Made by a program: the position numbers and the translations under genes
Notes under the pieces: model-generated
The model's input: the letters and a program-made list of their open reading frames with translations, nothing else
Database searches by the model: none
What the model was told of the DNA's origin: nothing
Part shown: piece after piece, positions 1,537 to 25,463 of the stretch
Layout of the letters: every line of letters begins with the position of its first letter
Numbering within the stretch: position 1 is the stretch's first letter
Virus record (IMG/VR): IMGVR_UViG_3300027810_000059
Span: 1-25,463 of that record
Source of the DNA: a virus
Length of the DNA stretch: 25,463 nt
Reading direction: 5' to 3' (one strand)

Positions 1537-3090
1537 ATGTCAAATCAAATTGTTAAGAACCTTGCCTTTGGTGAGGAAGCTAAAAACAACGTATTTAAAG
1601 GTATAGAAAAACTCACAAAAGCTGTTAGTTCCACTTTAGGGGCTAGCGGTAAATGTGTGTTACTAGAAAACGAATTAGGACAACCTGTTATAACCAAAGA
1701 TGGTGTAACGGTTGCAAATTCAATAACACTTAGAGATCCTATTGAGAATATGGGTGCAACGCTTTTAAAGGAAGCAGCTAGGCAAACTGTGAAAGAAGCT
1801 GGAGATGGAACCACAACAGCTACAGTCTTAGCACACTCAATATTATTAGAAGCATACGCTGCAAGTAATAGCGGATCTAGGGAAATGAAAGAAGGTATTG
1901 AATCAGCTACCAAAAAAGTGATTGCATATTTAGAAAAGTTAGCAGTACCCGTTGAGGGGGATATGGTAAACCATGTTGCAACAATTTCTTCTAACAATGA
2001 TAAAGAACTTGGTAATGTTATTGCTGAAGCTTTTAAGCAAGTAGGTAAAAACGGGGTTGTTACTATGGAGGTTTCAAACGATAGCGAAACAAGTTACGAA
2101 GTAATAAACGGAGCCGCAATAGATAAACCCTTAAAAAACTTTCACTTTATCACAGATGAAAGTAAAAAAGAAGCTGTACTTGAAAACCCATTAGTATTAC
2201 TAGTGGAAAACAAAATAGAGAACATACGTAAAATTCAAAGCGTTTTAGAGTATGTTATAAAAAACAATGAGCCTTTATTAATTATTGGTGAAGCAGACGA
2301 ACAAGTCGTATCCGCTTTGGCTATGAATAAAATGAAAGGTAATATTAAGGTCAATATTATTGACACTCCTGACTTTGGAATATACAGAAAAGAAAAGCTT
2401 CAAGATTTAGCTCTACTAACAGGTGCTACGGTCGTAAATGAAGACCTTGGTGACGACTTAGATATGATAGAGGTAGAAATGCTAGGAAAGTGTTTAAAGT
2501 CCATTACAAACGACCAGGAGACTATTATACAAGTAGGTGACACTTCTATTGAAGTACAGGAAGTGATCGATTCTATACAAGATGACATTAAAAGTGAAAC
2601 TTTACCAGGTAAACTTAATAGATTAGAAAAAAGATTAGGTTTATTATCTTGTAAAGTAGCTGTTATAAAAGTAGGTGCAAGTTCAGAGGTTGAGCTTAAG
2701 GAAAAGCAAGATAGAGTTGAGGATGCAATGTGCGCTACGAAAGCTGCTATTAAAGAAGGTATTGTGCCAGGCGGTGGAATTGCTTTGTTAAATGCTTCTA
2801 CCTACATTAAGCCAAGCAACGATAACGAGCAGGTTTTATTAGAAGCTATTAAAGCTCCTTATTTAACTATACTAAAAAACGCCGGTTTAGAAGTGGTGTA
2901 TCCAAAAGGAAAAGGTAAAGGAATTAATGTAGTTACCGGTAAAGACGTTAATATGATTAAGTCTGGTATTATTGATCCTTTATTAGTTACTAAAAGCGCA
3001 TTAAAAAATGCAGCGTCAGTAGCTACAACCATATTGTCAACAGATTGTGTAATCAACAACTTAAGAGTAGAAGATGAAAGCAATAGGTAG
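1537..3090 (+). CDS. groEL: GroEL-type group I chaperonin (Hsp60)
   Basis: ATP-driven protein-folding ring subunit, 517 aa against about 545 in bacteria. All three domains are present. The equatorial ATP site shows TLGASGK (33-39), KDGVTVA with D55, and GDGTTTATVLA with D90. The matching C-terminal elements are RVEDA with D396 (the ATP-hydrolysis Asp), PGGGIAL (411-417) and IIDP with D480. The apical domain spans about residues 190-375. The usual TLGPKG is TLGASG here. The C-terminal GGM tail of bacterial GroEL is missing; the protein ends VEDESNR. The GroES- and substrate-binding face is altered: by alignment with E. coli, Y199, Y203 and L234 become Leu, His and Gln. It is followed by groES with a 17-nt overlap, the reverse of the usual bacterial order. 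The gene ends in TAG. A viral chaperonin probably folds a virion protein such as the capsid. Family assignment is near certain; the client is inferred. Confidence 0.97.
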   Translation: MSNQIVKNLAFGEEAKNNVFKGIEKLTKAVSSTLGASGKCVLLENELGQPVITKDGVTVANSITLRDPIENMGATLLKEAARQTVKEAGDGTTTATVLAHSILLEAYAASNSGSREMKEGIESATKKVIAYLEKLAVPVEGDMVNHVATISSNNDKELGNVIAEAFKQVGKNGVVTMEVSNDSETSYEVINGAAIDKPLKNFHFITDESKKEAVLENPLVLLVENKIENIRKIQSVLEYVIKNNEPLLIIGEADEQVVSALAMNKMKGNIKVNIIDTPDFGIYRKEKLQDLALLTGATVVNEDLGDDLDMIEVEMLGKCLKSITNDQETIIQVGDTSIEVQEVIDSIQDDIKSETLPGKLNRLEKRLGLLSCKVAVIKVGASSEVELKEKQDRVEDAMCATKAAIKEGIVPGGGIALLNASTYIKPSNDNEQVLLEAIKAPYLTILKNAGLEVVYPKGKGKGINVVTGKDVNMIKSGIIDPLLVTKSALKNAASVATTILSTDCVINNLRVEDESNR

Positions 3091-3334
3091 AAACTTAATA
3101 ATAAAAATCATTAAAGAAACAACTACCAAAACAAAAGGCGGTTTAATACTTAATGAAAAAAGTAGAGAAGATATAAGATATCGCAAAGCTACTATTGTAT
3201 CAGTTGGTACAGATGTTGAAGGTGTAAATGAAGATGATGTAATATACTACGACAAAACAGCTGGGCACGGAATAGAAATAGATAATGAAAAACTACACGT
3301 TATAAAGAATCAAGACGTAGTAGTGGTATTATGA
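3074..3334 (+). CDS. groES: GroES-type co-chaperonin, shortened
   Basis: The lid of the GroEL chamber, 86 aa against 95-97 in bacteria. The N-terminal strand (LIIKII) is followed by a mobile loop around residues 15-30, with TKTKGGLIL matching E. coli TKSAGGIVL; the GroEL-contacting IVL becomes LIL. Next come IVSVG and the closing half DDVIYYD...KLHVIKNQDVVVV. Between VSVG and DDVI only about 10 residues remain where E. coli has about 19, so the roof beta-hairpin is absent, as in T4 gp31. The start overlaps the groEL 3' end by 17 nt, which suggests translational coupling and matched amounts of the two proteins. The stop overlaps the next ATG (ATGA). Pairing with the adjacent GroEL is a strong inference. 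Confidence 0.93.
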   Translation: MKAIGRNLIIKIIKETTTKTKGGLILNEKSREDIRYRKATIVSVGTDVEGVNEDDVIYYDKTAGHGIEIDNEKLHVIKNQDVVVVL

Positions 3335-3777
3335 AACGATTAGAAGCAAGGGATATTAAAGATATGAACTTGCTGAAACATTATCGGGTTATACGTAAAT
3401 GGGCATGCAGGAATAACGGTTTAAATGATGCAGATCTTGAACTACTTATTTATTTTGATTGCATGGAGTTTTTTACTAAACACGATTTTAAAATAGGTAC
3501 ATACGCTTATAGCTGGGATAATAGACGATGGAATAGGTTACTAAAAGAGGGATGGATTGTAGTGTGGAGAACACGAAATAGAACCACCCAAAAATATAAC
3601 ATATATAAAGTATCCTTTAAGTGTAAACAGTTAATAAGCAAAATGTATCGAATAATGTTAGGAGAAGAAGATATACCTTCTAGCGAAAAAAGAAACAGTA
3701 TTATGCGTGGTAAAACTTATACAGATAAAGTTTTACAAACAGCAATATATAACGTCAATAAAGATAAAAATAGATAA
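3331..3777 (+). CDS. Small winged-helix-like protein, putative regulator
   Basis: 148 aa, basic, overlapping the groES stop by 4 nt (ATGA), so it is cotranslated with the chaperonin pair. Residues about 15-100 have the look of a MarR-like winged helix. Helices around VIRKWACRNNGL and LELLIYFDCMEFF are followed by WNRLLKEGWIVVWR and a beta-wing (TTQKYNIYKVSFKCKQLI). The C-terminal 30 residues are polar. I recognise this as a small conserved protein of marine Bacteroidota phages, but I cannot name a target. It could regulate late transcription or bind DNA or RNA in packaging. The fold is inferred from the helix/wing pattern only. Confidence 0.5.
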   Translation: MKRLEARDIKDMNLLKHYRVIRKWACRNNGLNDADLELLIYFDCMEFFTKHDFKIGTYAYSWDNRRWNRLLKEGWIVVWRTRNRTTQKYNIYKVSFKCKQLISKMYRIMLGEEDIPSSEKRNSIMRGKTYTDKVLQTAIYNVNKDKNR

Positions 3778-20997: not shown

Positions 20998-21888
20998 ATG
21001 AGCAACGGAACATTATCAACCCAATTCGAGCTTCTTTCAGGGCTAGAAAACAATAATAATAAATTAATAACAGCCGAGGATGTTTCAAACATCGTAAAAA
21101 GTAATTATCAACCAGTAATGATATGGTCAGGCATATTTACTAGAGACAACTCTATTCCAGAGGGTGGTAACAGATGGTATCCAAGAACAAATTACTATAA
21201 TCCAGATTTTTTTCAACCACGCTCTACAGGCGTAGGCGTTGGAGGTGCTGATCAAATATGGCGGTTCACAAACAGAGGGAGCTTAGCTATTAATACCACT
21301 TATACAAATATTGCAGTAAATCCCGACCCTTGGCGTGGGACTTGGCAGACATTTTCAAATCAATATATATCTAAACCCGCTACGTTTAATATTACGACTG
21401 ATGGCAACGGGGCGGTAAGTTCTTATGAGATAGTTAGTTGTGGCCAGGGTTGGTTTGGGCCAGCAGGTAATTTTTCAGGAGGTCAATGGTCCTACCCTGG
21501 GCAAACAGGAGTTTTAAACGTAACGGGTTTTTCCGGGAGTTCTTTACCTACCGTTGAATTTAATAGCCCGCTTACTCCAGTAGCGCAAGTATCTCCTACG
21601 TTTTGGGGAAATCCAGCTTGGACGCTTTCTACAAATCCGAATTCACCCGGAGACACTGTGCCTGGGCAAGGAGCAAGCCTTAATCATACTTTTATTAATA
21701 CAGCAGTTCATCGTTCTAATGCTCAAGGTAAAGGGCAGCAGAGATATAACCCGGGTTTATGGATAGGTCCAGAACCTGGTCAAACTGTAATAACCAACCC
21801 ATGGAATAATCGTCTACAAGGAGAAGGCTGGGTAAGTGATTCAAATGATGTGCCACAATATGTAACATTATGGAGAATGCCTTTTTAA
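20998..21888 (+). CDS. Aromatic/Gly-rich tail protein, unknown
   Basis: 296 aa. The N-terminus (TQFELLSGLENNNNKLITAEDVSNIVKSNY) resembles the anchoring helices found at the start of phage fibre-like proteins (ITAEDVxxIV). The rest is rich in Trp, Gly, Asn, Pro and Ser (RWYPRTNYYNPDFFQP, WRGTWQTF, GQGWFGPAGNFSGGQWSYP) and should be all-beta. There is no enzyme motif. It lies between two nozzle/propeller-type genes and has its own TAAA leader. A trimeric tail appendage or receptor-binding protein is the best guess. It could be a recently gained module. The function is unproven. Confidence 0.55.
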   Translation: MSNGTLSTQFELLSGLENNNNKLITAEDVSNIVKSNYQPVMIWSGIFTRDNSIPEGGNRWYPRTNYYNPDFFQPRSTGVGVGGADQIWRFTNRGSLAINTTYTNIAVNPDPWRGTWQTFSNQYISKPATFNITTDGNGAVSSYEIVSCGQGWFGPAGNFSGGQWSYPGQTGVLNVTGFSGSSLPTVEFNSPLTPVAQVSPTFWGNPAWTLSTNPNSPGDTVPGQGASLNHTFINTAVHRSNAQGKGQQRYNPGLWIGPEPGQTVITNPWNNRLQGEGWVSDSNDVPQYVTLWRMPF

Positions 21889-23391: not shown

Positions 23392-23802
23392 ATGGAATTA
23401 AATATTAGAATGCTTCAGGACTCCGATTGGGATACATTAGTATCTTGGTGGGACGGTTGGAAAGAATGGAAAGCACCTCCTAGAGACATGCTTCCTGATA
23501 ATGGCAAAGGTGGATTTATGGTTGAAAACGAAAACGGTCCTATAGTGGCTGGGTTTGTTTATACTGCAAATTCAAAAACTGCGTTATTAGAGTTTATAGT
23601 TTCAGATCCTAACTACAAAGGTAAAGATCGGAAAGAAGCAATAGAGCTTTTAATAAATGGAGCAGAAGAAGTGTGTAAAGAAAAAGGATATAAATATATA
23701 TTCAGCATTGGAAGAAATAAACATTTAATGGAAACACATAAGAAATTAGGGTATCATGTAGATACTAAGCCTTCTTACGAAATAATTAAAAAAATAGGTT
23801 AA
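23392..23802 (+). CDS. GNAT-like N-acetyltransferase
   Basis: 136 aa, the usual length of one GNAT domain. Strand one and helix one are LNIRMLQDSDWDTLVSWWDGW. Core strands are GFMVENENGPIVAGFVYT and TALLEFIVSDP. The acetyl-CoA loop region is NYKGKDRKEAIELLINGAEEV (family pattern Q/RxxGxG/A, here degenerate as YKGKDRKEA). The end, YIFSIGRNKHLMETHKKLGY, matches the GNAT pattern of a helix followed by LGF/Y. It would move an acetyl group from acetyl-CoA to an amine. The substrate is unknown. Its place among tail genes suggests modification of a virion or host protein, which is inference. The next gene starts 4 nt later. Confidence 0.68.
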   Translation: MELNIRMLQDSDWDTLVSWWDGWKEWKAPPRDMLPDNGKGGFMVENENGPIVAGFVYTANSKTALLEFIVSDPNYKGKDRKEAIELLINGAEEVCKEKGYKYIFSIGRNKHLMETHKKLGYHVDTKPSYEIIKKIG

Positions 23803-23805
23803 AAT

Positions 23806-24546
23806 ATGGCAGCAGTAACAGCAATAGTAGCGGCAAGCGCGGCAGTAATAAGTTCGGGAGTTCAAGCTATTAGCGCAAATCAGAAAGCTCAAGCAGCTAA
23901 AGGAGATGTAGCTAGAGCAAAAAACAGTTTAGAAGAGCTTGAAGCGTCAAGACAAGATATTGTGAATCCTTATGAAAACATGGAGAATCTATCGGGCATG
24001 GCCTCAGATACTTCTGGTAATTTGAAAAATAGGTTTGCAAACATAGGGGTTGCTACTCAGGCTGCTGAAATGCAAATAGAAGAAGCTGATGTTGCATTAG
24101 CTAATACTTTAGATACTTTAGCCGCTACTGGGGCAAGTGCTGGTGGAGCTACAGCTTTAGCACAAGCAGCTTTACAAAGTAAAAAAGGTGTATCTGCTAG
24201 TATTGAACAACAAGAGGTTTCTAATCAACAAAAAGCAGCTGCTGCTGAAATGCAAATTGATCAATCTAAAATGGGTGAAGAACAAAGGTTGCAAAACATA
24301 AATATGAGTGAAGCGCAAAGAATGCAAAACGCAGATGCTCAAGGTGCGGCTTATGAATTTGAAGCTAGAGAAAAAAGAGAATTGGTTGGTTTAGATAGAG
24401 CCTCAGCTCAAATAGAAAATGCTCAAGGGCAAGTTGCATCATTCCAAAAGACTAGAGATGGAGCGGTAAGTAGCGCTATTAGCGGCTTAGGTAATGTAGC
24501 TACTTCAGTGGGAGGTTATTTGGAGGAACAAAGAGAAGAACCCTAA
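23806..24546 (+). CDS. Internal virion (ejection-type) protein
   Basis: 246 aa, helical and Ala/Gln-rich. A hydrophobic N-terminus (VTAIVAASAAVISSGVQAI, residues 4-22) is followed by long coiled-coil segments (AKGDVARAKNSLEELEASRQ; AAAAEMQIDQSKMGEEQRLQ). There is a Gly/Ala linker with ATGASAGGATALAQ at about residues 108-121. This is the profile of gp14-like internal proteins ejected to form the trans-envelope channel in podoviruses. The frame ends in CCC TAA at 24541-24546, where a +1 shift would add 34 conserved-looking residues (separate entry). The next gene is another ejection-type protein. Confidence 0.68.
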   Translation: MAAVTAIVAASAAVISSGVQAISANQKAQAAKGDVARAKNSLEELEASRQDIVNPYENMENLSGMASDTSGNLKNRFANIGVATQAAEMQIEEADVALANTLDTLAATGASAGGATALAQAALQSKKGVSASIEQQEVSNQQKAAAAEMQIDQSKMGEEQRLQNINMSEAQRMQNADAQGAAYEFEAREKRELVGLDRASAQIENAQGQVASFQKTRDGAVSSAISGLGNVATSVGGYLEEQREEP

Positions 24547-24649
24547 AACAGCTTCGTACAATACGCAGGTACGAAACGCAAACGTGGACGCTCCAATTGA
24601 TCCATTAACTGGAGAAAAAGTACAATTAATGACAAGAAGAACACCTTAA
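24518..24649 (+). CDS. Short overlapping frame: +1 frameshift extension or ATT-started small gene
   Basis: This frame overlaps the end of the 23806 gene in +1. It has no ATG, GTG or TTG after its preceding TAG except a late GTG and ATG. The only upstream start candidates are rare ones such as ATT (24518). Still, the product looks like real protein: NPKTASYNTQVRNA, then NVDAPIDPLTGEKV, then QLMTRRTP. I recall similar short IDPLTGEKV/LxTRRT products in related marine phages. A +1 shift at CCC TAA would join it to the upstream protein, giving 280 residues. Otherwise it is a 43-residue gene with an unusual start, or a gene broken by an indel. Confidence 0.45.
   Translation: MWRNKEKNPKTASYNTQVRNANVDAPIDPLTGEKVQLMTRRTP
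24535..24547 (+). other. Candidate +1 ribosomal frameshift site (CCC TAA)
   Basis: The zero frame reads GAA GAA CCC TAA. A proline tRNA on CCC can re-pair with CCT one base ahead, and the next codon becomes AAA instead of the TAA stop. CCC followed by a stop codon is a known kind of +1 shift context in phages. The +1 frame is open to TAA at 24647-24649. Confidence 0.4.
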
Positions 24650-24658
24650 AAACAATAT

Positions 24659-25463
24659 ATGAGTTATAGAAATCCAAAAGCGGCACCAATCAATACAGGG
24701 GCTGCGGTATATGAAGGTATAAACAAACTTGCTGGCGATGTTTTTACATTTGCAAACAACGAAAGAGATCGTAAAGGTCAATTAGTAGCAGATAGTTTAG
24801 CTGCTCAACAAGCTATTGATGACGACGTTAATAAAATGGGGTTATCTTTAAATGAAGGTGACAACAATTTTGAAACTCAAGTGTTCGCAGAAGCTCAAGC
24901 TGCTAAAAAAGCAATTGCAGCACAGTACGAAACAATGAGTAGAACTTTTTCTTCACCGGAACAAAGAGCTAAAGCTAAAGCAGAAATAGCTAGACTTAAT
25001 AAGTATCCTGAAAATCTTGTGGCTGACCTTAGTACTGGTAAATACATTACTGACATGTACGATAAAGCCATGCAGTTACAGCAAGGGAAAACTGGATCTA
25101 TAAGCAAGTCAAATGATATTAATCTAATAGCTGTGGCTGGCGATATGAAAGCTGGCGGTAAAAACACAAAGATTGAAACCAATGCCGCTGGATCTAGAAC
25201 TTTAGTTACAACTATAGATAAAGACACTTACAGGCTTAATATATCAAATATAACCAACGGTTTAAAAACAAACCCTAACCAAACATTGTTTAAAACAGTT
25301 CAAGATGATGCGCCTGATATAAAAACTTATCAAGCTGCTTTAGGTCTTAATGACAAAACAAGCATTGATGCAATGATACTTTCTGGTAAAATGAAAAAAT
25401 CAGAATCAAAAGTTGATAGATCAGGAAAGCTAATGGACCTGTATGTATTAGACGAAGCTGAAG
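24659..25463 (+). CDS. Internal virion (ejection-type) protein, N-terminal part (3' end outside window)
   Basis: Open from the ATG at 24659 to the window edge, 268 codons. It starts SYRNPKAAPINTGAAVYEGINKLAGDVF, with a charged, mostly helical body after it. Segments include ADSLAAQQAIDDDVNKM, ETQVFAEAQAAKKAIAAQYE and PEQRAKAKAEIARLNKY, with likely coiled coils. No enzyme motif, such as a transglycosylase glutamate context, can be made out in this part. It follows a gp14-like gene, and podovirus ejection proteins are usually encoded as such a run. A large internal virion protein is therefore the best call. The opening, NTGAAVYEGINKLAGDV, is similar in style to internal proteins of marine podoviruses. 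The identity of the rest is unknown. Confidence 0.62.
   Translation, partial: MSYRNPKAAPINTGAAVYEGINKLAGDVFTFANNERDRKGQLVADSLAAQQAIDDDVNKMGLSLNEGDNNFETQVFAEAQAAKKAIAAQYETMSRTFSSPEQRAKAKAEIARLNKYPENLVADLSTGKYITDMYDKAMQLQQGKTGSISKSNDINLIAVAGDMKAGGKNTKIETNAAGSRTLVTTIDKDTYRLNISNITNGLKTNPNQTLFKTVQDDAPDIKTYQAALGLNDKTSIDAMILSGKMKKSESKVDRSGKLMDLYVLDEAE

Follow-up and report, generated by a model that had tools for sequence, protein, structure and literature searches.

The window, by which we mean the whole stretch of DNA analysed, is an IMG/VR virus record of 25,463 bases from a marine phage. Among its proteins, the terminase, the portal and several head proteins have PHROGs family matches. The portal also has matches in 87 phage records (Flavobacterium 68, Cellulophaga 15, Tenacibaculum 2, Maribacter 1, unnamed 1). 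The window carries its own chaperonin pair at positions 1537-3334, Cpn60 (E 2.6e-57) and Cpn10 (E 1.2e-11). A 483-aa gene at 21926-23377 matches the C-terminal domain of the crAss-like phage muzzle (PF25729, E 8.2e-7), hinting at a shared tail hub. This gene is followed by an acetyltransferase gene, the gene under study, and a gene that is cut by the contig end (Table 1). Articles cited below by PMC number are cited from excerpts of their text.

Table 1. Features at the 3′ end of the window
Feature	Position	Strand	Basis
GNAT-like acetyltransferase gene, upstream neighbour	23392..23802	+	PF00583, E 0.0021, 18.8 bits, under the cut-off of 20.7
Core gene, short product of 246 aa, candidate helical virion/ejection protein	23806..24546	+	ORF; 260 distinct family members; helical model
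Putative shift site CCC_UAA	24541..24546	+	Sequence; rarity of CCC; identical site in SPP1 gp17.1* (excerpt of PMC6316719)
+1-frame tail, 34 codons plus stop, predicted long product of 280 aa	24545..24649	+	Best codon-usage frame; no start codon
Perfect 7-bp hairpin (arms 24553-24559 and 24569-24575), possible stimulator	24553..24575	+	Six bases past the stop; P 0.013 from window composition
Next gene, cut by the contig end, at the position of a gp15-like ejection protein	24659..25463	+	ORF; order matches named phages

The core ORF ends with GAA GAA CCC TAA, in which CCC occupies 24541-24543 and TAA 24544-24546; a first-pass annotation made from the sequence had likewise placed its end at CCC TAA. 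Positions 24500 to 24646 are open in the +1 frame, which begins past its own TAG (24497-24499) and closes at a TAA (24647-24649), 9 nt before the start of the next gene. The same annotation had this frame running for 34 codons without a usable start, and this was borne out: neither ATG, GTG nor TTG occurs in the +1 frame from the TAG through 12 codons past the junction, and the sole later ATG, at 24629, comes too late, six codons short of the stop. A separate start for the window tail was rejected on these grounds. Decoding CCCT as proline gives a product of 280 aa, in agreement with the 246- and 280-residue forms that had been proposed. Frame 0 closes 18 codons beyond the TAA, and therefore plain readthrough would miss the tail; readthrough of the UAA in frame 0, for which no point in favour was found, was rejected and deserves almost no credence.

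CCC makes up 18 of the 7004 codons in the 20 window ORFs (18 of 254 proline codons), a rarity that favours a programmed site. Within these 20 ORFs it is the last codon only in the 23806-24546 gene, and among the 260 family members only the window ends in CCC, so that CCC_UAA is absent at this site from all other members. The sequence CCCU (24541-24544) would let the proline tRNA slip by +1, and the hairpin region at the junction gave a fold z of -1.58. The open +1 frame alone is weak evidence, because 6% (window composition) to 13% (gap composition) of resamplings match its length. A chance open frame in an untranslated spacer, from which no longer product is made, would accord with this strict figure, and also with the 49% of shuffles in which a frame spans the gap when a frame in either direction counts and a margin of 45 nt is granted. 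Weighing against chance, the spacer of 112 nt after the gene is unusual, gaps of at least 55 nt being present at 18 of 845 other gene ends in the family loci (2 of the 18 are copies of this gene). The CCC at the stop, the codon-usage score of the tail frame, which is the highest among the three plus-strand frames, and the family pattern described below also count against chance, which we regard as quite improbable.

Protein scans of viral contigs and genome contigs yielded 462 entries including the window; removal of 18 entries running off their contig and 184 duplicates left 260 distinct members, again including the window. The only relative from the genome collection is L303 (CALKXE010000160.1), from an uncultured Saprospiraceae MAG, which may be a hint of the host or a binned virus. 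Gap statistics were calculated for 248 members, as the locus of the other 12 lacks a next gene. Of the 248, 214 had a gap shorter than 55 nt and 34 one of at least 55 nt. Where the gap measured 70-160 nt, a shifted frame spanned it in 29 of 29 members against 11.2 expected from Markov shuffles of the same gaps, which reached a maximum of 22 in 200,000 draws. At the control gene ends, open frames spanned 17 of 18 long gaps; this control did not discriminate, the 45-nt margin being generous when gaps are short, and the shuffle test took its place. After the stop of L352 there is a spacer of 359 nt, and 112 nt remain after the tail of L270, possibly representing small inserted genes.

Slippery motifs were enriched at the long-gap junctions. 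An X_XXY_YYZ heptamer, absent from the window itself, was found within the last three codons of 24 of 34 long-gap members and 11 of 214 short-gap members (Fisher p 2e-17), and G_GGA_AAN lay at the stop in 19 of 34 long-gap members and 1 of 214 others (p 3e-18); both p-values count related sequences as independent. Generic heptamers were common at control gene ends in these AT-rich genes (105 of 845), and the motif case therefore rests on G_GGA_AAN, which occurred at only 2 of the 845. Both of these are G_GGA_AAG sites (L065, L066) and belong to misplaced copies of this gene.

The set of members with a candidate tail was fixed at 34 including the window, or approximately 13% of the 260, after three members were removed by hand (L242 and L352, whose long gaps come without a motif, and L141, which has an odd frame and lacks a next gene) and two, L167 and L251, which have no next gene in the locus, were added. 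The -1 motifs in this set were G_GGA_AAG (14), G_GGA_AAC (2), G_GGA_AAA (2) and G_GGA_AAT (2), and further motifs were A_AAA_AAG (4), A_AAA_AAC (1), G_GGG_AAG (1) and U_UUU_UAA or U_UUU_UAG (2). The +1 motifs were GGG_UAA (3) and CCC_UAA (1, the window). Two candidates, L212 and L294, had no clear slip motif, and L294 has its tail in common with L310. The +1 reading of the window given in the first pass gains support from the many family shift sites located exactly at the stop, from the three other +1 sites, and from a precedent in phage SPP1 discussed below. The mean fold z downstream of the stop was -0.73 over the 34 candidates, compared with -0.09, -0.14, 0.05 and 0.18 in controls, and the folding energy past the stop did not differ from that of the upstream coding sequence (p 0.22); RNA structure 3′ of the stop is thus a moderate signal of limited strength.

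The tails have coding character. The shifted frame had the best codon usage in all 34 candidates, and in ten chosen pairs of related tails the substitutions numbered 57, 37 and 86 at codon positions one, two and three. Homologous tails occur in different frames: L118 and L125 reach the TLTPQG tail by +1 but L274 by -1, the VNAFIPGVGTFLQNQGN tail is preceded by G_GGG_AAG in L156 and by U_UUU_UAG in L428, and the LTIDTDYVPDFNFDNAS tail requires a shift in L190 but lies in frame in L199. L274 and L295 encode nearly identical protein up to the -1 junction and carry unrelated tails beyond it, as if the tails had been exchanged at the shift site. The tail could instead be a separate small gene with its own start, or be translated by reinitiation or coupling at a non-standard start. 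Short overlapping genes are common in phages, which counts for such an arrangement, as do the shifted-frame ATGs near the junction in 5 of the 34 candidates; these are opposed by the lack of an ATG, GTG or TTG start in the window and by the in-frame fusion of the same tail in L199, and we consider a separate gene very improbable.

A homologue of the window tail was not found among the other tails or the in-frame C-termini, and the PLTG motif was present in 0 of 260 in-frame C-termini. The window tail contains IDPLTGEKV, and the counterpart in Maribacter phage Panino ends with ...INPLTGKPYGIV, a match too short to weigh.

A FastTree of 150 rows placed the window as sister to L001, in which the tail is in frame. 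The closest relatives (L001, L002, L003, L304 and L308) all carry a C-terminal tail fused in frame, those of L002, L003, L304 and L308 being of similar length, and the extended window product would end at a distance past the conserved GG similar to that of the fused tails of its clade mates. Within the clade, only the window is shifted. The shifted or unshifted state required 22 changes on this tree, suggesting that the shift state turns over often; the tree is a quick one with many open forks, for which L058-L063 were omitted and 254 rows thinned to 150. In L003, the counterpart of the window gene at 20998-21888 ends early at TTC CCC TGA (3484-3489), past which the +1 frame continues to resemble the rest of the 296-aa window gene; this may be a further +1 site of the CCC_stop type or an additional C within a run of four.

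An assembly error or a real one-base indel would produce the same picture in the window if the tail is, or recently was, fused in frame as in the sisters, the shift then not being programmed. The first-pass annotation had pointed to homologues as the arbiter between a fused and an independently started small frame, and the outcome was mixed: no member of the window clade has an independent start for the small frame, as expected for a shift, but the closest relatives fuse the tail in frame, which fits a programmed shift and a recent indel alike. The in-frame tails of the five relatives and the junctions of L190 and L199, where one A in a run of A divides a shifted from a fused member, favour an indel. 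A search for a second copy of the window virus found none, and since the window is the sole CCC_UAA case among sisters fused in frame, an indel has to be considered for this contig. A random indel, however, would rarely place the rare CCC directly before the first stop, and candidate shift sites recur across the family; the rarity of CCC and this base rate of 34 in 260 favour a programmed site over an indel, which we hold to be unlikely in the window. Five sites are identical in two contigs from different metagenomes (L084/L085, L109/L110, L137/L142, L212/L213 and L333/L334), and therefore assembly error cannot explain every site. Frameshifting at the 3′ end of this gene family is thus well supported by the comparison, and the +1 site of the window, resting on one contig, is likely.

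The 246-aa protein matched no Pfam or PHROGs family at threshold. PF24072 (T7_gp14) gave no match to the window product at E<=0.1, and its Pfam gathering score was not reached; 5 of 105 family members matched at E<=0.1 (best 0.0019), L021 scoring 15.2 bits against a cut-off of 27. The model of the window product is mostly helical (residues 3-47, 80-108 and 112-236) and is of low confidence around the junction. The most hydrophobic stretch lies at the N-terminus, and the tail lacks hydrophobic character. Structure alignment covered 104 of 148 eligible relatives and the window product. Foldseek found no solved structure in the PDB at a usable E-value, and in BFVD an 'Internal virion protein' ranked second (prob 0.99, E 0.02).

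A direct search of the phage collection found no close relative of the gene. The family profile was above the inclusion threshold in 3 of 10 same-position genes of named phages and matched a fourth weakly, compared with 0 of 8 controls; at Z=1000, Tenacibaculum phage Gundel_1 gp72 gave E 5.7e-7 and Cellulophaga phage phi38:1 gp099 E 4.5e-5. These two are structural proteins in the same gene order but differ from the window gene in being single in-frame genes with the next gene directly after, and a shift at this gene was absent from all 10 named phage records examined. The elemoA phage has genes of 203, 449 and approximately 3,694 residues in this order; the gene under study may be the first of such a gp14-gp15-gp16-like block, the window ending inside the next gene. 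MS/MS data underlie the structural annotation of the counterpart in Cellulophaga phage phi18:3, but the family profile does not match that protein directly, the link running only through the elemo phage protein. For the 246-aa protein we think a T7 gp14-like ejection role probable; as PF24072 does not match it at threshold and the phi18:3 link is indirect, we call it gp14-like rather than a gp14 member. The designation 'internal virion protein' made in the first pass holds as a reasonable inference, though not as a demonstrated identity. Like the window protein, T7 gp14 is a short helical protein encoded directly before a gp15-like gene (gene order in an excerpt of PMC8954989), and the sub-threshold PF24072 matches add to the likeness, whereas the window product falls below the Pfam cut-off and has no PDB match.

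CCC before a stop had been put forward as a known +1 context in phage structural genes, and SPP1 confirms this: gp17.1* is produced at CCC_UAA, with short and long forms in tails at about 3:1 (PMC6316719). The slip and stop sequence is the same as in the window, and in SPP1 the minority product likewise extends a virion protein at its C-terminus (PMC6316719). SPP1 differs in that a tail tube protein of a Bacillus siphovirus receives an Ig/FN3-type extension of 87 residues (PMC6316719), whereas the window would add 34 residues to a helical protein of podovirus type. Listeria phages use +1 at CCC_UGA, and in PSA, A118 and A500, as proposed for the window, ribosomes slip by +1 in structural genes where a rare proline codon stands (CCC_UGA, CCC in cps) (PMC5009743); their capsid and tail-shaft genes and their hosts are different, and the likeness noted is one of shift type. 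Gene 10 of T7 and T3 (10A/10B) provides a podovirus virion protein with two C-terminal forms and unrelated extensions on related genes (PMC5009743), although it encodes the major capsid protein, shifts by -1 and involves no gp14-like protein.

The heptamer G_GGA_AAG used by the window relatives is presumably also that of the -1 frameshift in lambda G/GT. Lambda G/GT is a tail assembly chaperone and is not known to form part of the virion. The family differs from lambda in having the stop almost directly after the heptamer and a short extension, and the window itself would use +1. G_GGA_AAG was rated highly shift-prone in E. coli (PMC5009743). Regarding hosts, the prfB +1 site is kept in 523 of 726 Bacteroidia genomes (PMC8710568), and F. 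johnsoniae is reported to be inefficient at the prfB +1 site (PMC12421855), which counts against a +1 slip in the window. The excerpt of the ejection-protein review PMC8954989 contains 0 occurrences of 'frameshift', and in the literature searched, mostly outside subscription journals, no report was found of frameshifting in internal virion or ejection proteins or in Bacteroidetes phages.

Taken together, we favour, with a probability of about three in four, a helical, probably gp14-like protein made in 246- and 280-aa forms by a +1 slip at CCC_UAA, within a family whose junction is variably decoded. Most ribosomes would stop at UAA and release the short form. A fraction would slip by +1 while the stop codon waits, the proline tRNA shifting from CCC to CCU, and would add 34 residues to give the long form. 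Across the family, the C-terminal junction would be handled by -1 slippage (mostly at G_GGA_AAG), +1 slippage, in-frame fusion or the absence of a tail. The anatomy of the site, the enrichment of motifs, the coding character of the tails and the decoding of homologous tails in different frames have been demonstrated; slippage in the host, its efficiency and the entry of both forms into the virion we infer. T7 gp14 makes an outer-membrane pore (PMC8954989). For the gp14 homologue of Vibrio phage Peru-2, the ends that are not resolved have been predicted to enter the membrane (PMC13320782). If some subunits bore a C-terminal tail, it could act at such a pore. Our guess is that these subunits would carry the tail as an exposed segment that can be exchanged, and that this segment would be tuned either to the envelope of the host or to an ejection protein acting as its partner.

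A broader proposal, to which we give even odds, is that the 3′ end of the gp14-like gene in flavobacterial-type phages serves as a recoding junction, where slippage would attach an optional tail and set a fixed ratio of tailed to untailed ejection protein. The motif and direction would vary while homologous tails persist, and tails would be swapped between near-identical proteins such as those of L274 and L295. The best-known cases of frameshifting in phage virion genes concern tail assembly chaperones, tail tube proteins and capsid proteins. A shift that recurs and switches direction where the gene of a likely ejection protein ends would, if true, add a gene class to these. Gene callers would then miss such tails, and the family, with its 22 state changes, would offer a natural series for how slippage sites arise, switch direction and disappear. 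The observations suggest that some ejection complexes may use two forms of one subunit.
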